A DNA stretch of 64,000 nucleotides from Natronorubrum thiooxidans (GTDB lineage: Archaea > Halobacteriota > Halobacteria > Halobacteriales > Natrialbaceae): positions 62,001 to 126,000 of the forward strand of contig NZ_FTNR01000007.1 in the NCBI RefSeq assembly GCF_900156475.1, read 5' to 3'. This document shows positions 38,463 through 60,240 of the stretch, one piece after another. The translations under genes and the position numbers were made by a program. How positions within the stretch are numbered: position 1 is the stretch's first letter; every line of letters begins with the position of its first letter. The notes below the pieces were generated by a model, which searched no databases, was not told the DNA's origin, and saw nothing but the letters and a program-made list of their open reading frames with translations.

Positions 38463-40145
38463 TTACTCGGTGCGTACCAGTGTCTCCAGCTTCGACCGGA
38501 CGTCCTCATCGAGCGTGTACGTTCGCTCAGTTGGTCGAGCGAGGACGCCTTCGGTCCGTAACTCTGACAGGAGTCCCTGGACTGCAACCGTCGACCGGTT
38601 GACTTCGTCGGCGACGGCTGCAGACTCGAGGGCCCCGTCTCGAGCCAGCACGGCGAGTGCGTTCCGTGCCGTCGCCACGGTACACTGTGATTGTTCTGTT
38701 GCGCGCACGAGTCGGTCGTCGATCCACTCACCATCGAACCACTCCTCGTGAGTTGTCGACTCCGTCGTGGCGCTTGACACCCCGTCGTCAGTGTCCGTGC
38801 TTGCCGTCTCCTCGACCGGCGTGTAGCCGAACTCGATATCATCGCCGCCGGCCTGAATGATCGTCGACTCTGACGTCGATGGTGTCCCTGACTCCTGCGT
38901 CGTCTCGAGTTCGCCGACTCGATCACGCAACCGCTCGTTTTCCTCGCGCAGCCGTTCCATCGCGTCCGTTCGCGACGCGAGTTTTGTCTCGAGCGTCTCG
39001 ATTTGCTCGTCTCTGTCGACGAGTTCGGACTCGAGTTCGTCTCGCTCGGTCTCGAGGGCGTGGATTTCGTCGTGAAGCCGCCGTCGCTCGTCCTCGTCTT
39101 CCGGGAGCTGTGTCTGGACAGTCTCCGGTCGCGTTAGCGCATCCGCCATCTGTTTGGCCGCACTCGAGACGTCCCGTGCCGACTCGAGTTCGGTCTCGAG
39201 TGTCTCGATGCGTTTGTCCTTTTTCTCGAGTTCGTTCTCGAGTTCGAGGATTCGATCCTCTTCGCGTTGCTTTCGCTCCGAGATATCCTGCAGGTCGCCG
39301 ACGAGGGCATCGGAGACGGACTTCAGTTCGGGGCGCTCGAAGTCGTCGAGTCCAGGCGTTGCGCCGGCGTCGAAGGTCCGCTTGCGGCGGAACTGGACCT
39401 TCCGTACGTCGACTTCGGTCCAGTCGGTCTGGACGAACGCCTGTCCGTCGTTGAGTTCTGAGACGAGTTCCGAGTACTCGGTGTCGATGATTCGCCCGAC
39501 GACTTTGGTGTCGTTGTCCCAGGTTAGCCGATGCCAGACGAGCCAGTTCGCCTGCGTGATGAAATCCTTCTTGACGTCGGCCGGGCGCTGGCTGATGCCG
39601 AGGATACCGAGGCCGTGCTTGCGCCCGCGCTTGCTGATCTTGATCAGCAGGTTCCCCGTCTCGCCGACGCCACCGCCTTCCGGAATGTACTCGTGGACCT
39701 CCTCGACGACCAGCAGGAAGGGCTTTTTCAGCTTCTTCTCTTTGACGAACAGCTGGCGGGCGATCTTCCGGAGGAGTTCATCCGCCACGTCCTCGTCGAG
39801 ATACCCCGAGACGTCGAGGATCACCGGGACGTTCTCCTCGAGTGCCAGCGAGGCCATCTGTTCGGCGTGTTCCGGCCCGATCTGGATATCACACTCCTCG
39901 TCGGCTCCGGCGTGGAGCATCTCGTACTCCTCTTTGAGCCCGTAGTACTCGCCGTCGGTGTCGACAATCAACAGCGGGAAGCCGGCCTCGAGTAACTCCT
40001 CGGCGATGACCGACGCCGTGTTCGACTTTCCAGAACCCGACTTGCCGGTGACGAACCCGCGGCCAGTCAGCAGTTCGACGACGGGAAGATGCAAGTTCTG
40101 TCTATCGGCCGTCTCGCCGACGAGAATCTCACGTTGGTCGCTCAC
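38463..40145 (-). CDS. HerA-like ATPase with long coiled coil and C-terminal winged helix
   Basis: A 560-aa DNA-translocase-like ATPase of the HerA/FtsK superfamily (DUF87 type). Walker A GKSGSGKSNT is at residues 34-43. LLIVDTDGEYYGLKEEYEML, the Walker B-like KPFLLVVEEVHEYIPEGGGV and LGILGISQRPADVKKDFITQ (sensor and Arg motif) complete the motor. Residues about 290-440 form a coiled coil with many Glu/Arg heptads (DRILELENELEKKDKRIETL). The C-terminus has a winged-helix-like domain (CTVATARNALAVLARDGALE, ADEVNRSTVAVQGLLSELRT). GTG 40145 is chosen because a TATA box (40180-40190) sits 40 nt upstream; the frame is open 45 codons further, but that part would lie upstream of the promoter. It diverges from parA across the repeat region. 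Confidence 0.8.
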   Translation of the reverse strand: MSDQREILVGETADRQNLHLPVVELLTGRGFVTGKSGSGKSNTASVIAEELLEAGFPLLIVDTDGEYYGLKEEYEMLHAGADEECDIQIGPEHAEQMASLALEENVPVILDVSGYLDEDVADELLRKIARQLFVKEKKLKKPFLLVVEEVHEYIPEGGGVGETGNLLIKISKRGRKHGLGILGISQRPADVKKDFITQANWLVWHRLTWDNDTKVVGRIIDTEYSELVSELNDGQAFVQTDWTEVDVRKVQFRRKRTFDAGATPGLDDFERPELKSVSDALVGDLQDISERKQREEDRILELENELEKKDKRIETLETELESARDVSSAAKQMADALTRPETVQTQLPEDEDERRRLHDEIHALETERDELESELVDRDEQIETLETKLASRTDAMERLREENERLRDRVGELETTQESGTPSTSESTIIQAGGDDIEFGYTPVEETASTDTDDGVSSATTESTTHEEWFDGEWIDDRLVRATEQSQCTVATARNALAVLARDGALESAAVADEVNRSTVAVQGLLSELRTEGVLARPTERTYTLDEDVRSKLETLVRTE

Positions 40146-40179
40146 CGCCCCATCACCGCCGACGCCTGCGACGCGTTCA

Positions 40180-40190
40180 TATATCTTATA
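40180..40190 (-). promoter_or_regulatory. TATA box of the HerA-like gene
   Basis: TATAAGATATA on the minus strand, about 35-45 nt before GTG 40145. It fixes the start of the HerA-like protein downstream of this site. Confidence 0.5.
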
Positions 40191-40282
40191 CTCCGAACAC
40201 TCTCCCTTGAATATTGGCCTCGCATGGCTGTTCCATGCGTGTAATCTGTGCGGGATGTTCGCTTGGCTGTTCCTCGCCAAAC

Positions 40283-40309
40283 AGTTTACACTTTGTACAC
40301 GGTGTAGGA
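40283..40309 (+). repeat. Nonamer array 1 (3 units)
   Basis: AGTTTACAC, TTTGTACAC, GGTGTAGGA in exact 9-bp register. Confidence 0.7.
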
Positions 40310-40363
40310 TGTTGATACTGTCTGAACATCACCAACTATTCGTCGTCATCCCATCCGACTGCT

Positions 40364-40417
40364 ACTCGACACTGTGTACACATTTTAGACCGTGCACACT
40401 GTTCCACGAACACTCAC
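40364..40417 (+). repeat. Nonamer array 2 (6 units)
   Basis: ACTCGACAC, TGTGTACAC, ATTTTAGAC, CGTGCACAC, TGTTCCACG, AACACTCAC in register. Confidence 0.7.
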
Positions 40418-40501
40418 AGTCAGTTGCGACGACACCTAAGGCTCGAGTGTGGATCAATCGTGACTGAATTCCGGACCACGAACTGCCCGAACGCTCTCTA
40501 C

Positions 40502-40573
40502 AGCTCACACAGTGCACACTTTGTAAACAGTCTATAATTTGTACACCGTGTGAACTTTTTATACTTCCTCGAC
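40502..40573 (+). repeat. Nonamer array 3 (8 units)
   Basis: The longest run: AGCTCACAC, AGTGCACAC, TTTGTAAAC, AGTCTATAA, TTTGTACAC, CGTGTGAAC, TTTTTATAC, TTCCTCGAC, all in 9-bp register. Confidence 0.75.
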
Positions 40574-40640
40574 TGAACTGTTCAACACAGAACTGCGTTG
40601 TATGCGCCCAGAGGCGGTTCAGACACTATTCCCAAAACAA

Positions 40641-40702
40641 AGTTTACACGGTGTAGATCAACCCAATAGGCACACAGTGCAGACTGTGTAGAATGTGTAG
40701 AC
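40641..40702 (+). repeat. Nonamer array 4 (2 + 4 units with a one-base phase shift)
   Basis: AGTTTACAC and GGTGTAGAT, then after 8 bases TAGGCACAC, AGTGCAGAC, TGTGTAGAA, TGTGTAGAC. Confidence 0.65.
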
Positions 40703-40794
40703 AGTCTTCCGCTACTGTTAAGTCCGATTACTTGAATGATAGGCGTGTTACCCGCCACGGTAGACTGAACCGCTCTCAACCGGACATCGTACAA

Positions 40795-40812
40795 TGTTTC
40801 CACCGTATACAC
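40795..40812 (+). repeat. Nonamer array 5 (2 units)
   Basis: TGTTTCCAC, CGTATACAC. A lone related unit, ACGGTAGAC, lies at 40757-40765. Confidence 0.5.
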
Positions 40813-40875
40813 GCTGTTCGCCGCTTGCGCATCGGAACCGGTCTGATCAGTCGGGTAGTCGCTCGAGTTTGGTGC

Positions 40876-40938
40876 TGTCCAAACGGTTTACACTCTCTAG
40901 ACTGTCCACACATTCCACACGGTGTACACTGTGTCGAC
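40876..40938 (+). repeat. Nonamer array 6 (7 units)
   Basis: TGTCCAAAC, GGTTTACAC, TCTCTAGAC, TGTCCACAC, ATTCCACAC, GGTGTACAC, TGTGTCGAC in exact register. Confidence 0.75.
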
Positions 40939-40995
40939 GGCTCTTCCGTTCGACACCGCTTGGTCCATACTCGCCTCGGCGGTATTCACTTGAAC

Positions 40996-41058
40996 GGTGT
41001 ACACAGTCTACACTGTGTCGACCGTCTCGACCTCGAGAACGGTGTTCGGTGTCCGACC
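40996..41058 (+). repeat. Nonamer array 7 (7 units), proximal to parA
   Basis: GGTGTACAC, AGTCTACAC, TGTGTCGAC, CGTCTCGAC, CTCGAGAAC, GGTGTTCGG, TGTCCGACC. It ends 49 bp before the parA ATG, so binding here could also repress parA. Confidence 0.7.
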
Positions 41059-41107
41059 ACTCCTCTCCGGCTACGCGGTTGCTGTGGCGACTGCGGTGTT
41101 CTTACAA

Positions 41108-41941
41108 ATGACAACACAGACTCCACGCGCCGTCAGCGTCGCCCTGCAGAAAGGCGGCGTCGGCAAAACGACGATCGCGATCAATCTCGCTGAACGACTC
41201 GCCAACCGAGACAACGACGTCTTGCTCGTCGACTTAGATCAGCAGGGCAACGCCACCGAAGGCGTCGGACTGAGCGCGGCCTACACGAGCGACGTCCACC
41301 TCGGCGACGTCTTGGAAGACGGCTCGGAGACGACCCTCAAGGACGTGATCCGTTCGACCGATTCCTTCGACGTGTTGCCGGCCCACGAAGATCTGGATAG
41401 CGTCGAGAACAGCATTCGAAGCGCGACCTTCGGCGAGTTGTGGATCAGAAACGAGATCGTCGACCCAGTGCTGGGTGACGAGTACGACTACGTCGTCGTC
41501 GACTCGCCGCCGAATCTCGGCCCGCTCGCCGACGCCTCGCTGATCTCGACCCAGAACGTCATCGTCCCGTTGCGGATGAGCGAGCCCAGCGTGAGCGGGT
41601 TCGAACGCATGTATACCCAGCAGATCGGCCCGATCCGCAATGAGATCGACCTCGATATCCTCGCGATCGTGCCGAACTCGCTCGCCGGCGACAACGAGGA
41701 AAAGCGGATCATCGGCGATCTCGAGGAGTCTCAGTTCGGTGAACTGCTCCCGTCGTTTGCGCAGTCGGACCACTTCGATGATCCTGATTCGCCCGGCCCT
41801 GGCCTCCGCGAGCGAATCGCGTTCAAACGGGCGTGGCGCGAGGGCGTCCCGCTCGCCGAGTACGATCCGGACAACGACATGCTCGAGCGCCTGGACGAAC
41901 TGGCGGCGATCGTCGAACGCGGAGGTGTCGACGATGCCTGA
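41108..41941 (+). CDS. parA: ParA family partition ATPase
   Basis: A 277-aa Walker-type ParA/Soj ATPase, expected to bind non-specific DNA in the ATP state and move or position a partition complex. Deviant Walker A KGGVGKTT is at residues 15-22. DVLLVDLDQQGNATEGVGL carries the Walker A' Asp, and YDYVVVDSPPNLGPLADASL gives Walker B. There is no N-terminal helix-turn-helix, so it belongs to the small type Ib/Soj-like class, in which the partner often regulates transcription. ATG 41108 follows the last repeat array. Its 3' end overlaps the partner gene by 8 bp. No replication initiator gene lies nearby, so this is probably a chromosomal or large-replicon locus away from the origin genes. Confidence 0.88.
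   Translation: MTTQTPRAVSVALQKGGVGKTTIAINLAERLANRDNDVLLVDLDQQGNATEGVGLSAAYTSDVHLGDVLEDGSETTLKDVIRSTDSFDVLPAHEDLDSVENSIRSATFGELWIRNEIVDPVLGDEYDYVVVDSPPNLGPLADASLISTQNVIVPLRMSEPSVSGFERMYTQQIGPIRNEIDLDILAIVPNSLAGDNEEKRIIGDLEESQFGELLPSFAQSDHFDDPDSPGPGLRERIAFKRAWREGVPLAEYDPDNDMLERLDELAAIVERGGVDDA
41921..41927 (+). promoter_or_regulatory. Shine-Dalgarno inside parA for the partner gene
   Basis: GGAGGTG ends 6 nt before ATG 41934, within the last codons of parA. It indicates coupled translation of the ParA-partner pair. Confidence 0.65.
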
Positions 41942-42386
41942 GGACAACCGGTTTGCCGGACTCAGTGAGGCTGTCGACGAGGACGACTCCGATGACAGCA
42001 CCGGTGGCGAGTCGGCAACCGACGACGTGGACACTGCTGTCGACTCGAGCGACCAGTCGGGTTCGACGGAGGTCGACTACGATTCGGATAGGGACGAGAC
42101 GGTGACCGAGTCCGAGCCGTCGCCCGACAGCACCGACACCGAACCGGCCGAATCCGACGATCCGACCGCGTTTCCGTTCGACGCGACCGAAAAGAAGACG
42201 GTGTACGTCCGCCCCGAGACGGTCGCGGAGGTAGAAGACGTGCGGGCGCTGGTCGACGCACAGTTGCGAACCGACCACGACGTTCGGGATCTAACTGGGC
42301 GGGAGTTCTACGACGCGGTCTTCCAGCTCGCGGCGTCGGATACGGACGGGCTGATTGAGGAACTGCTCGAGGCCCGCGAGGAGTAG
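41934..42386 (+). CDS. ParA partner: acidic tail plus ribbon-helix-helix-like domain (candidate centromere-binding protein)
   Basis: A 150-aa protein. It begins MPEDNRFAGLSEAVDED, a short conserved-looking N-terminal segment that could touch ParA, followed by about 60 disordered acidic residues. The C-terminal part (about 80-150) reads FPFDATEKKTVYVRPETVAE, a likely beta strand (87-93) and first helix, then VRDLTGREFYDAVFQLAASD, a likely second helix, then an acidic helix. Strand-helix-helix order, size and position after parA match ribbon-helix-helix centromere-binding proteins such as ParG or omega; homology is not proven. It overlaps parA by 8 bp. The nonamer arrays upstream of parA are its candidate binding sites. 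Confidence 0.6.
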   Translation: MPEDNRFAGLSEAVDEDDSDDSTGGESATDDVDTAVDSSDQSGSTEVDYDSDRDETVTESEPSPDSTDTEPAESDDPTAFPFDATEKKTVYVRPETVAEVEDVRALVDAQLRTDHDVRDLTGREFYDAVFQLAASDTDGLIEELLEAREE

Positions 42387-44471: not shown

Positions 44472-44837
44472 ATGGTTCACCTCGAGTGGGAGATCGATCG
44501 ACGGGAGGGCGTCACGTTCATTTCGGCGACCGTACGCAACACGCACACGACACCACAGACCGTCCGTCTCGAGAGTCGACTCGATGGGGAAACGTGGGCT
44601 CCCCGACGCGGCGGTGACACGGTTCGCGAGTGGAACGGCGACGTCTGGACGGGGGTCGTCGACCCGGGACGCTGTCGCGGCGTGGGCTTTGCGACGCCGG
44701 CAGCGCCGGTGGAGCCGCCAGTCGAACTCGTCGACGCCTGTCGGGCATCGGATGCCACCGGGTCCCAATCAGCGAGCGTGCTTCGGTCCCTCGAGGCGTG
44801 GCAACCGACCAGAGACGTCCTGCCACGGATGCCATGA
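44472..44837 (+). CDS. Haloarchaeal beta-rich protein, operon partner of a MinD-like ATPase
   Basis: A 121-aa protein of unknown function: MVHLEWEIDRREGVTFISAT, VRNTHTTPQTVRLESRLDGE, a DPGRCRGVGFATPAAP turn, then a variable tail. The first 80 residues look like one immunoglobulin-like beta sandwich. Related small proteins (DUF7857-like; number from memory) occur in haloarchaea. Its stop overlaps the start of the MinD-like gene (ATGA, 44834-44837). Its promoter matches those of the pilus genes, so it probably belongs to that system. Confidence 0.6.
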   Translation: MVHLEWEIDRREGVTFISATVRNTHTTPQTVRLESRLDGETWAPRRGGDTVREWNGDVWTGVVDPGRCRGVGFATPAAPVEPPVELVDACRASDATGSQSASVLRSLEAWQPTRDVLPRMP

Positions 44838-45511
44838 TCGTCGCCGTCACCGGTGGCAAAGGTGGTGTCGGCAAGTCGATGGTGTCGCTGAACCTCGCTC
44901 GAGAACTCGATGCAGTCGTCGTCGACGCCGACCTTACGACTCCTGACGTCCCTCGCAGTGGCGGACCGAATCTGCACGATATTCTGGCCGGGCGTGCGGA
45001 GCCACTGGACGGACTCGTGCGAATCGGTTCCGTGCGCGTCCTCCCTGCAGGTCGAACGCTCGCCGGCGCACGCGCGGCCAAGCTGACGGCGTTTTCCAGA
45101 ACCGTCGACCGGATCGAACGCCAGTGTGGACACGTCGTTGTCGACTGTCCCGCAGGGCTGGCTCGCGATGTCGGCACTGCACTCGACAGCGCACACGTTG
45201 CGGTGCTCGTCACCACGCCGACCGAGTCGGCGGTGGTCGATGCACTTCGGACGCGTCAGGTCGCACTCGACCTCGAGACACCTATCGCAGCGGTCGTCCT
45301 CAACAGAACCACGACCGCCGACAGCGAGGGACTTACCGATCGACTCGAGCGCCATCTCACCGCGCCGACGATCTCGATCGAGGAACTGTCGGTCGTTACC
45401 GAGGCACAAAGACAGTGGCGTCCTGTTCGAGAGATCGACCCGGCGTGTCCGGCCGTCGATGCCTTCGAAACGGTCGCGCAGGCGGTCGACCGCTGTGAGC
45501 AACGACGCTAG
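44834..45511 (+). CDS. MinD/ParA-like ATPase of the pilus locus
   Basis: A 225-aa P-loop ATPase of the MinD/ParA group. Walker A GGKGGVGKSM (Lys9 and Lys14) follows the start directly, ELDAVVVDADLTTPDVPRSG is the A' region, and GHVVVDCPAGLARDVGTAL is Walker B. The domain is short and lacks a clear membrane-targeting amphipathic C-terminal helix. MinD-type proteins place pili, archaella and chemosensory arrays in haloarchaea, so placing this pilus-like machine is a fair guess. It is coupled to the small beta protein upstream, and its stop faces the stop of the MinD-KaiC-like gene 2 bp away. Confidence 0.8.
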   Translation: MIVAVTGGKGGVGKSMVSLNLARELDAVVVDADLTTPDVPRSGGPNLHDILAGRAEPLDGLVRIGSVRVLPAGRTLAGARAAKLTAFSRTVDRIERQCGHVVVDCPAGLARDVGTALDSAHVAVLVTTPTESAVVDALRTRQVALDLETPIAAVVLNRTTTADSEGLTDRLERHLTAPTISIEELSVVTEAQRQWRPVREIDPACPAVDAFETVAQAVDRCEQRR

Positions 45512-45513
45512 TC

Positions 45514-46848
45514 TCACGTTGTCTCCGGGTTCGGTTCAATCGCCATCGGCCTCGAGTCACCGAACGCGAGTTCGACTGTCTTCGTCCCCGCGCTATCGGC
45601 CCGAAACTTCCGTATGGACAGTTCGTATTCAATGGCCGTTCCAGAGTCCGCCGTGGCCGGTTGGAGATCGAAGACGGCATCGACGGCATGGATCGTCGCT
45701 GTCCGATTATTCGGTGGCTCCGGCGCTGTCAAACAGTGTAACACGGCGATACTCTCGTTCTCGACCATTCGTTCTTTGAGACTGTTCAAAAACGAGACGT
45801 ACGTCGACCGATCGTGTCGCTCGAGTTCGGCGATCGGATCGACGATCAGGGTCGCACCGTCTGGCAGTTTCTCGAGCAGTTCCGTCGCGTTCTTGAGTGT
45901 GTCTTTCCCTTCGACAGACCGAATCGTCGGAGTACCGGTCTCTACCGTTGTCGATGCAATCGCTCGCCGGACGTTCGCCACCGATCGCTCGGTCGAGAGA
46001 TACAGCGTCCCCCGGGGAGCGGTCATCTGATACAGCAACTGCTCCGATTGGCTCGCCGGTGGGGCCGAAAGCGCGACCACTGTCCCCGGTGCCAGCCCAC
46101 CACCGAGGTTGTGATCGAGCGTCGAGATTCCTGTCTGACATAACGCGTCGTCGTACTCCGGTGGCGTTCGATTTGTCGCGTTTCGTGTCTGTAGCGTCTC
46201 GATAATATCTCCATACGCTTGCTGTGTGGACTCGTCGGTCAACGGCGTCTCCGTCTCGGGAACCAGCCCCAGTACCGGGACGTCGATCCACGAGTCGACC
46301 GCTTCTGGAACCGTCTCACACCGGTTCAGTACGGCTCCGAGTATCGGTGCCTCGAGTCGGCGAGCCATCTCGATCGTCGTCTCTGCGGCACTGATGCTGC
46401 GTTCGGTGGCGGTCGTCACGACGATCACGCCGTCTGCTGCCGACAGCGGCTCGACGACGTCCGGGCCTGCACCCGACGGACAGTCGACGAACGGCTGGAC
46501 CGTCTCGGTATCGAGCGTCTCGAGGACCGACTCGATCGCGCCTCGCTCCGACGGCATCGGTGCCGGTACGATCCCAGCGTTCGAGGCGCGAGGGCTCTGG
46601 TGGGCGATCGACTGGAGTTCGGTTGTTCTTTCCGTGGTCGACGCTTCGCTTGCAGTCGGTCGATCGGCCGACTCGAGTGCCGCAAGCGTCGGTTCGCGGT
46701 CGACTCCCGCTGTGACGTGGAGATTTGGGAGTTGTCGATCGGCGTCGATGGCGACCGACGCCATCCCCGTCCGGGCGAACGCCTCGGTGAGACCGATCGT
46801 CGTTACCGTCTTGCCACAGCCACCTTTCGATCCGGCGATAGCGATCAT
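45514..46848 (-). CDS. MinD-like ATPase fused to a KaiC/RecA-like domain with decayed P-loop
   Basis: A 444-aa two-domain protein. The N-terminal half is MinD-like: MIAIAGSKGGCGKTVTTIGL (K8-x4-K13-T), ASVAIDADRQLPNLHVTAGV, VQPFVDCPSGAGPDVVEPLS. The C-terminal half (about 245-444) resembles a KaiC/RecA core: CQTGISTLDHNLGGGLAPGT, but the expected P-loop reads SAPPASQSEQ without the Gly-Lys-Ser/Thr, so it should not hydrolyse ATP there. GATLIVDPIAELERHDRSTY is its Walker B-like strand. ATG 46848 is supported by the shared promoter at bases 46849-46879. It may be a positioning factor with a sensory or scaffold domain. Confidence 0.75.
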   Translation of the reverse strand: MIAIAGSKGGCGKTVTTIGLTEAFARTGMASVAIDADRQLPNLHVTAGVDREPTLAALESADRPTASEASTTERTTELQSIAHQSPRASNAGIVPAPMPSERGAIESVLETLDTETVQPFVDCPSGAGPDVVEPLSAADGVIVVTTATERSISAAETTIEMARRLEAPILGAVLNRCETVPEAVDSWIDVPVLGLVPETETPLTDESTQQAYGDIIETLQTRNATNRTPPEYDDALCQTGISTLDHNLGGGLAPGTVVALSAPPASQSEQLLYQMTAPRGTLYLSTERSVANVRRAIASTTVETGTPTIRSVEGKDTLKNATELLEKLPDGATLIVDPIAELERHDRSTYVSFLNSLKERMVENESIAVLHCLTAPEPPNNRTATIHAVDAVFDLQPATADSGTAIEYELSIRKFRADSAGTKTVELAFGDSRPMAIEPNPETT

Positions 46849-46879
46849 ATCGATACTGGTTCGCCTTCCTTTTTGAACC
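46849..46879 (-). promoter_or_regulatory. Pilus-locus promoter signature, copy 2
   Basis: GGTTCAAAAAGGAAGG then CGAACCAGTATC, with the ATG at base 32. Same plan as copies at 44440, 47842, 51673, 52813 and 53955. Confidence 0.55.
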
Positions 46880-46920
46880 TCGGTATCAGCGGGCGTCCGC
46901 GGCAACTGTACGAATTTACT

Positions 46921-58187: not shown

Positions 58188-58281
58188 TCCTGAGTTGTGG
58201 ACGTCCTGATAGTTTCGCCGTCGTTCTGCATTTGGAACTGGAGTGGTAATACCTATCTGTTGGGAGCCAAAACAGCGGTAT

Positions 58282-60240
58282 ATGGAACATCGTTTAGACA
58301 CAAAGAACCGAGACGTCCCAGACGAAGCAACGCTTGAAGTGAATAATATCGGTGGGATCGATGAGACCACGGTGTCGTTCCGACAGGGGGTGACAGTGCT
58401 CTCCGGTCGAAATGCGACGAACCGGACCTCACTGTTACAAGCAATCATGGCTGCACTCGGCAGCAATCAGGTGAGTCTCAAAGCCGACGCGACGGAAGGC
58501 AGTGCCGTCCTCGAGTTCGGCGATGAAACCTATCGACGGACGCTCACACGTCGAAGCGGCACGATTGCCACGGACGGAGAGCCGTACCTCGAGGACCCGG
58601 AACTTGCCGATCTGTTTGCCTTCCTCCTCGAGTCGAACGAGGCACGACAGGCCGTCGCTCGCGGCGACGACCTCCGCGAACTGATCATGCGCCCGGTCGA
58701 TACCGCCGCAATCAAATCGGAGATCGAACAATACGAACAGCGAAAGCGCAACCTCGACGACCAGCTTGCAGAACTCGACGACCTCGAAGGGCGTCTCCCC
58801 GACCTCGAGGCAAAGCGGACACGCGTCACTGACGAAATCGAGACGCTACAAGCAGAACTCGAGACGGCCCAAAACAAACTCGAAGAGACGAACGTTGACG
58901 TCGAAGAGCGCCGAGAGGAACAGTCCGAACTCGAGGCAAAGCTCGACGACGTCCGTGAGACGCGATCCGAGATCGAACACACCCGAAACCGAATCGAGAC
59001 CGAACGCGCGAGCATCGAGGCTCTCGAGGAAGAGCAAGACGAAGTTCAGGACACACTCGAGTCGCTCTCGACGGGTGATGAGACGGAGATCGGACGTCTT
59101 GAGGCGGAGATTGAGACCCTTCAGGCCGAAAAGGCTGACCTCTCCGAAGAGATCTCCCAGTTACAGAGCACCATCCAGTTCAACGAACAGCTCCTCGAGG
59201 AGCCGGATTCGTTCCTCGCAGAGACGAACGAGACCGATGACGGCCCCCTGACGGACCAGTTGCTCGGCGATTCGGAGACGGTCACGTGCTGGACCTGTGG
59301 ATCGTCAGTTGCTCGAGACCAGATCGAAACGACGATCGAACAGCTCCGAACCGCACGACAGGAGCGACTCGAGGAGCGCTCCGAGATCAGTGCCGACCTT
59401 AACGATCGGCGGGAGACGCTGTCGAACATCAACGAAAACCGCACCGAGTACCAACAGACACAGCGGCGTCTCGAGTCGATCGCCGACGAGATCGACCGTC
59501 GAAGCGATCGAATCGAAGAGTTGACCGAGGAGCGTGAGGCACTCGCCGACGAAATCGACGAACTCGAAGCCGAGATCGAAGCTCTCGAAACCGAAGAGTA
59601 CAGCGGCGTGCTCGACCAGCACAAGGAGGTCAACCAACTCGAGTTCGAACTCGAGCGCAAAGAGCGCGAGCGTGACGAGATTGAAGACGAGATCGCCGAG
59701 ACCGAAGATCGTCTCGACGGTCGCGAGGGACTTGAGGCCCGCCGGGAGGACGTCACTGACGAACTGACGGCGCTTCGCACTCGAATCGACCAGATCGAGG
59801 CCAACGCGGTCGAGGCGTTCAACGAGCACATGGAAAACCTCCTCGAGACACTCCAGTACGAGAATCTCGATCGGATCTGGATCGATCGGACTACCCGTGA
59901 GGTTCGTGAGGGTCGCCGGAAAGTCTCGAAATCGTCGTTCGATCTCAAAATCGTGCGAAGCACCGACGACGGTGCGGCCTACGAGGACACGATCGACCAC
60001 CTGAGTGAGAGCGAACGGGAAGTGACTGGGCTCGTATTCGCACTGGCCGGATACCTCGTTCACGACGTCTACGAGACGGTTCCGGTTATGCTCCTTGACT
60101 CGCTCGAGGCGATCGATGCTGAACGGATCGCAACGCTTGTCGAGTACTTCGAGTCGTATGTTCCGTATCTCGTCGTGGCGTTGTTAGAAGAGGACGCACA
60201 GGCAGTCGAAGGAGGCCACGGTGTAATCACGGATATCTAA
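58282..60240 (+). CDS. sph: Archaea-specific SMC-related protein (Sph)
   Basis: A 652-aa SMC/Rad50-like ATPase. The N-terminal head has VTVLSGRNATNRTSLLQAIM (residues 38-57): the Walker A lysine position is Arg48 (NRTS), typical of Sph proteins but not of SMC or Rad50. Two long coiled-coil arms (about 150-320 and 350-530) flank a zinc-hook-like CWTC at residues 336-339. The C-terminal head has IDHLSESEREVTGLVFALAG (signature motif) and VPVMLLDSLEAIDAERIATL (Walker B, D-loop). ATG 58282 is used. It lies next to rdfA and probably works with it in cell-shape control. Confidence 0.9.
   Translation: MEHRLDTKNRDVPDEATLEVNNIGGIDETTVSFRQGVTVLSGRNATNRTSLLQAIMAALGSNQVSLKADATEGSAVLEFGDETYRRTLTRRSGTIATDGEPYLEDPELADLFAFLLESNEARQAVARGDDLRELIMRPVDTAAIKSEIEQYEQRKRNLDDQLAELDDLEGRLPDLEAKRTRVTDEIETLQAELETAQNKLEETNVDVEERREEQSELEAKLDDVRETRSEIEHTRNRIETERASIEALEEEQDEVQDTLESLSTGDETEIGRLEAEIETLQAEKADLSEEISQLQSTIQFNEQLLEEPDSFLAETNETDDGPLTDQLLGDSETVTCWTCGSSVARDQIETTIEQLRTARQERLEERSEISADLNDRRETLSNINENRTEYQQTQRRLESIADEIDRRSDRIEELTEEREALADEIDELEAEIEALETEEYSGVLDQHKEVNQLEFELERKERERDEIEDEIAETEDRLDGREGLEARREDVTDELTALRTRIDQIEANAVEAFNEHMENLLETLQYENLDRIWIDRTTREVREGRRKVSKSSFDLKIVRSTDDGAAYEDTIDHLSESEREVTGLVFALAGYLVHDVYETVPVMLLDSLEAIDAERIATLVEYFESYVPYLVVALLEEDAQAVEGGHGVITDI

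Follow-up and report, generated by a model that had tools for sequence, protein, structure and literature searches.

In type Ib partition systems such as ParF-ParG of TP228 and ParA-ParB of pB171, the centromere precedes parA and the gene of a small partner, while ParA itself is small and lacks an N-terminal helix-turn-helix extension. The locus described here, from the window (the whole 64,000-nt stretch of Natronorubrum thiooxidans DNA that was analysed), has the same gene order and a small ParA, but differs from TP228 and pB171 in repeat length, repeat sequence and partner family. Because the ribbon-helix-helix (RHH) fold of its partner is unproven, membership in the type Ib/omega class is not claimed; by analogy, the locus probably works like such a system.

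The plasmid pSM19035 offers the closest parallel in centromere layout. Its RHH ParB, omega, occupies 7-bp repeats grouped into six arrays, with one dimer per repeat, and full activation of ParA takes four or more contiguous repeats (PMC9499535). As in this delta/omega system (PMC9499535), a small ParA and a small partner are combined here with unspaced short tandem units, and several separate arrays occur per replicon; those of pSM19035 hold 7–10 units each; in the present system a distal array contains about 4–7, compared with the four contiguous units required there. The unit, however, is 9 bp and palindromic here versus 7 bp and non-palindromic in pSM19035, and the present system is archaeal, has a main array of about 39 units in eight blocks, and has a partner without sequence similarity to PDB chains.

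Archaeal systems provide further comparisons. SegAB of the Sulfolobales (PMC12284271) likewise consists of an archaeal ParA and a partner, with sites near the operon and scattered over the replicon. The SegB site is nevertheless a 13-bp palindrome, TCTAGASTCTAGA, lying mostly within genes of the main chromosome (PMC12284271), whereas tandem 9-bp ACnGTnYRn arrays are found here and the partner profile matches no SegB in the PDB. The AspA-ParB-ParA cassette of pNOB8 (PMC5120986) is also a plasmid-borne archaeal ParA partition cassette, but it comprises three proteins including a ParB homologue, and the present locus shows no sign of ParB or AspA. Pfam and NCBIfam scans of the partner reveal no ParB domain, which sets it apart from chromosomal ParB-CTPase/parS systems. 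What archaeal centromeres look like, on chromosomes and plasmids, clustered or dispersed, is considered open in a review (PMC5120986). No earlier description of the present system was found in the open-access literature, most subscription journals lying outside the search.

Repeat arrays upstream of parA

At 0.363, the 9-bp autocorrelation of the spacer (40146–41107) exceeds the 0.253 ± 0.015 of dinucleotide shuffles (z = 7.4), and it peaks again at 18 bp (z = 4.8) and 27 bp (z = 4.1). The pattern GTGTACAC, allowing up to two mismatches, occurs 25 times compared with 9.3 expected from shuffles. A cyclic 9-bp position weight matrix (PWM), trained on the parA spacers of 21 other Natrialbaceae species, resolves eight blocks between 40281 and 41056 (Table 1), with 49 units in phase, of which 39 exceed 2 bits; the last block stops about 50 bp short of parA. 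The preliminary description had listed about 39 head-to-tail 9-bp units in seven arrays at 40283–41058. The 9-bp repeat, unit count and location are borne out; the number of blocks is eight by PWM. Tandem Repeats Finder did not call the array at 40146–41107, as its units are too degenerate.

The PWM unit, ACnGTnYRn, is a palindrome in which each column is mirrored by its complement, minor alternatives included (A.82 pairs with T.81, C.81 with G.79). Since both strands score alike, the arrays are strand-symmetric and not directional. Directional units were accordingly rejected, and the earlier statement that units end in AC on the plus strand cannot be taken as an orientation of a unit with a dyad axis.

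Table 1. Features of the putative partition locus and its divergent neighbour (positions in the window)
Feature	Position	Strand	Description
HerA/DUF87-like ATPase	38463..40145	-	Long coiled coil; divergent from parA
Array block 1	40281..40325	.	5 units, 4 >2 bits; periodic PWM from other species
Array block 2	40371..40406	.	4 units; periodic PWM
Array block 3	40482..40571	.	10 units, 8 >2 bits; periodic PWM
Array block 4	40639..40656	.	2 units; periodic PWM
Array block 5	40674..40709	.	4 units; periodic PWM
Array block 6	40784..40846	.	7 units, 4 >2 bits; periodic PWM
Array block 7	40874..40963	.	10 units, 8 >2 bits; periodic PWM
Array block 8	40994..41056	.	7 units, 5 >2 bits; periodic PWM
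parA	41108..41941	+	277-aa deviant Walker ATPase (QKGGVGKTT); Pfam AAA_31 1.2e-35
Partner gene	41934..42386	+	150 aa; candidate centromere-binding protein, conserved downstream of parA
Partner N-terminal motif NRFAGLSEAV, residues 5-14	41946..41975	+	Near-invariant among orthologues; candidate ParA contact
Partner C-terminal domain, residues 76-150	42159..42383	+	Class-wide HMM hits 1e-10 to 1e-31; candidate DNA-binding domain

Tandem short-repeat sequence upstream of the parA operon is present not only in N. thiooxidans but also at its orthologues, as the preliminary description would predict. In the 950 bp upstream of parA, or less near a contig end, all 26 assessable Natrialbaceae orthologues have 9 bp as their strongest period, and so do two Haloferax plasmids (ParA about 70% identical) and one Halostella plasmid. 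Loci with a complete spacer and a strong signal hold 27 to 87 units each. In Salinigranum the partner is present, the spacer is short and the 9-bp signal is weak. Among the hits of a contig search with ParA, unrelated bacterial ParA proteins predominated, the P-loop pattern having swamped the results. Nine ParA loci at about 49–54% identity have neither a partner homologue nor an array; their combined 9/18/27 z ranges from -0.1 to 3.4 (300 or 600 bp), against 6.6–13.8 in 600 bp at array-bearing loci, and the values of up to 4.8 reached by some partnerless controls in 950 bp include a contribution from codon periodicity of upstream genes. Array presence tracks the partner gene. The HerA/DUF87-like ATPase gene flanks the array in most Natrialbaceae and is replaced by other genes in Haloferax, so it is probably no part of the partition system.

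Comparison of nine independent pairs of relatives points to selection on the units. The fraction of differing sites is 0.222 for bases of the ACnGT core, 0.366 for the other unit positions (P = 6e-26, core against these) and 0.342 outside the arrays. Among indels of at least 3 bp, multiples of 9 make up 11 of 26 inside arrays and 0 of 24 outside, a contrast that ambiguity of repeat alignment may inflate. By these substitution and indel patterns, the core bases are under purifying selection, and phase is under selection as well. Chance periodicity was rejected on the autocorrelation, the selection test on core bases and indels, and the partnerless controls.

ParA, its partner and their paralogues

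ParA contains no N-terminal extension or DNA-binding domain, carries its P-loop near residue 14, and is closest to the Soj/ParA structures in the PDB, which it matches at E ~1e-20. The partner gene overlaps parA by 8 bp, across the parA stop (ATGCCTGA), and is kept downstream of parA in orthologues and in array-bearing paralogues. The two genes are as the preliminary description had them, a Walker-type ParA and a co-translated 150-aa protein.

Alignment of the partner from 21 loci divides it into three parts. The protein starts with the near-invariant peptide MPxDNRFAGLSEAV, continues with an acidic linker whose length varies widely, and ends in a domain of about 75 aa (KKTVYVRPET...DLTGREFYDAVF). 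The N-terminal motif is reminiscent of the short peptides by which ParB-type proteins activate ParA, and it is a candidate contact for ParA, a role that we infer. Searches against Pfam, NCBIfam and PHROGs yielded no family match, and the partner family is absent from these libraries. The partner profile matched no chain among PDB sequences, SegB included, and found no relatives on the viral contigs scanned. Structure prediction with AF2 gave weak models, with a mean pLDDT of 55 for the full partner from a single sequence and 64 for the C-terminal domain from a three-sequence alignment. The better model shows an extended stretch followed by helices at 19–40, 48–59 and 65–74, and Foldseek returned no PDB fold match for it (best E 3.2). 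The modelled fold is compatible with an RHH domain but is not proof of one. For the strand-helix-helix C-terminus proposed earlier, the helices after an extended stretch are thus in favour, while the pLDDT of 64 and the missing PDB fold match leave it weakly supported.

Paralogous ParA-partner pairs are encoded on two other contigs of the same genome, C48 and C18. Periods of 9, 18 or 27 bp are dominant or among the top ones upstream of parA on C48, pHTUR02 and pNRC100, and likewise on Natronorubrum, Natronococcus, Halorussus and Haloarcula plasmids; the C18 locus has no clear 9-bp array upstream of its parA. The motifs, CCTATTGnA among them, differ, being ACCTATTGn-type in the pHTUR02 group, CTATTCnnA in pNRC100 and AGTTCGTAn in one Halorussus. 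In a survey of 145 genomes, all 29 of 29 distinct paralogous ParA loci have an adjacent partner, recognised by the C-terminal HMM at E 1e-10 to 1e-31; at 20 of them no base period does better than 9 bp. Most of the exceptions are relatives of pNRC100 with the same motif, at which the combined-period test gives no signal because their arrays are short. Across haloarchaeal paralogues the comparison indicates a shared 9-bp pitch with a motif specific to replicon type. The CTATTCnnA array of pNRC100 itself (L338, upstream of 2495) is apparently undescribed.

Replicon and distal arrays

The contig carrying the window, C30, is 225,006 bp long and encodes two orc1/cdc6 genes. Three distant parts of it (1–20 kb, 98–118 kb and 200–220 kb) all match the same named Natrialbaceae plasmid records, which belong to a pHTUR04-like family of 130–240 kb. 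Most parA orthologues reside on replicons or contigs of 100–270 kb, the closest including those of Natronorubrum bangense (213,905 bp), N. aibiense (207,310 bp), N. daqingense (202,531 bp) and Haloterrigena turkmenica pHTUR04 (171,943 bp), with two relatives on ~0.7-Mb replicons (L033, L034) as exceptions in size. On these grounds the main-chromosome location put forward in the preliminary description was rejected. Among the genes of the replicon are metabolic ones, for cobyric acid synthase and trehalose synthesis for example, by which C30 resembles a conserved megaplasmid or chromid.

Arrays also occur away from parA, nearly always on the same replicon. A 17-bp two-unit pattern finds array clusters in the N. 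thiooxidans genome only on C30, in the parA spacer and at C30:9540-9584 (L134), where about five units score 39–42 bits; the reversed sequence reaches 15 and Markov nulls no more than 19. A three-unit pattern applied to 20 genomes gives 3–22 matches in each and none in the reversed-pattern control, and the matches listed fall nearly all on the parA replicon. A single three-unit match off that replicon, at G035:C4:136096, could be an isolated site or have arrived with transferred DNA.

PWM scanning of nine parA replicons identifies one or more short distal arrays on each. Six replicons of 160–225 kb carry one apiece, of about 4–7 units, positioned 74–104 kb from parA or 0.42–0.49 of the circle, the fraction for C30 assuming that the contig is complete and circular. 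The remainder comprise a 100-kb contig with two, a 200-kb Halosolutus plasmid with one clear array, and a 675-kb replicon (G090:C2) with four. On four annotated plasmids among the six, the distal array occupies the same place; in the Haloterrigena and Natronorubrum plasmids it lies upstream of a bacterio-opsin-activator-like gene and near cobyric acid synthase, and, where shown, about 5–10 kb from an orc1/cdc6 gene. The array at C30:9540-9584 shares this neighbourhood, its downstream gene encoding a PAS/GAF bacterio-opsin-activator-like protein. In the Halosolutus plasmid the distal array is located between the 3' ends of convergent genes, as are two of the four on G090:C2 (genes there called from ORFs by us); such positions speak against a role at promoters only. 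The distal arrays may be accessory centromeres. GC skew did not place an origin consistently with respect to the arrays.

Interpretation of the locus and its neighbourhood

The locus probably serves to partition a conserved secondary replicon, through a ParA/small-partner system whose DNA binding, ATPase stimulation and segregation activity are proposed by analogy. The partition reading of the preliminary description is sustained by the conserved arrays, their absence where the partner is missing, and the selection on their bases; its chromosomal part is not, and its RHH assignment stays unproven. Weighing against the partition reading are a partner without recognisable fold, the weak or absent 9-bp signal at the C18 paralogue and in Salinigranum, and the polyploidy of haloarchaea (PMC5120986), by which their need for active partition may be lessened. 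In the proposed mechanism, partner dimers would sit side by side on the palindromic units, one dimer per unit as with omega, the arrays upstream of parA forming the main centromere and the short distal arrays accessory sites. Successive 9-bp units are rotated by about 309 degrees on B-DNA (own calculation), and bound dimers would accordingly wind around the helix. Laid out in this way, they could present many N-terminal peptides to nucleoid-bound ParA; the NRFAGL peptide, on its long acidic linker, would engage ParA-ATP and trigger ATP hydrolysis, by which replicon copies would be moved or spaced. A motif of its own for each replicon type, at the same 9-bp pitch, would render the system replicon-specific.

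Three other explanations of the arrays compete with a partition role, to different degrees. The arrays could be no more than regulatory operators at which the partner or another protein represses parA and a few distal genes, and the position of the main array between divergent genes, together with the syntenic distal array upstream of the bacterio-opsin-activator-like gene in Haloterrigena and Natronorubrum plasmids, fits this. Yet the 39 to 87 units spread over 0.8–1.3 kb in Natrialbaceae are far above a usual operator, some distal arrays sit between convergent 3' ends (Halosolutus; two of four on G090:C2), and the coupling is to the ParA-partner pair, so that an operator-only role is unlikely. 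Operator and centromere functions coincide in omega-type systems, hence regulation and partition are not exclusive, and the spacer could also serve transcriptional control.

A role of the arrays as origin iterons, recognised by a replication initiator, is very unlikely, even with orc1/cdc6 genes on the replicon and a distal array some 5–10 kb from one of them. On six replicons the main and distal arrays face each other across the circle, 74–104 kb apart, and array presence follows the partner gene; haloarchaeal origin boxes are, moreover, longer and adjacent to orc1. Least probable of all, to the point of being hardly credible, is a neutral tandem repeat or a composition artefact. The degenerate units, missed by Tandem Repeats Finder, would suit it, but arrays are found at all assessable orthologues and at none of the partnerless ParA loci, and slower change of the core with 9-bp indels refutes neutrality unless alignment error explains the substitution pattern.

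Beyond the partition role of this single locus, a class-wide scheme of replicon addressing is conceivable, to which we give somewhat less than an even chance. One small-protein family would read a fixed 9-bp lattice whose letters differ per replicon type, and the dispersed arrays (one on most 160–225-kb replicons, four on the 675-kb replicon) would, in addition to the centromere next to parA, act jointly as a multi-site centromere or organising tag, allowing several large replicons to share one polyploid cell. The arrays supply sequence-defined candidate centromeres for a whole class, together with a specific partner protein to test, and culturable hosts are at hand in Haloferax mediterranei (pHME505), Haloterrigena turkmenica (pHTUR04) and Halobacterium (pNRC100). 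A fixed pitch with changing letters would amount to natural orthogonal protein-DNA pairs, of use in studies of plasmid incompatibility and for stable haloarchaeal vectors.

Several genes of related kinds are situated near the locus. Two more ParA/MinD-type ATPases adjoin it, at 44831-45508 (+) and 45517-46905 (-); one is fused to a DUF7125 domain, and neither belongs to an array-associated pair. An Archaea-specific SMC-related protein (ASRP, NCBIfam 8.9e-205) is encoded at 58276-60237 (+), about 16 kb from parA. The AAA ATPase found downstream in Natronorubrum daqingense and Haloterrigena was rejected as an SMC-related protein, being CDC48-like. The par locus of Natronorubrum bangense has an rdfA-ASRP pair some 3 kb away.
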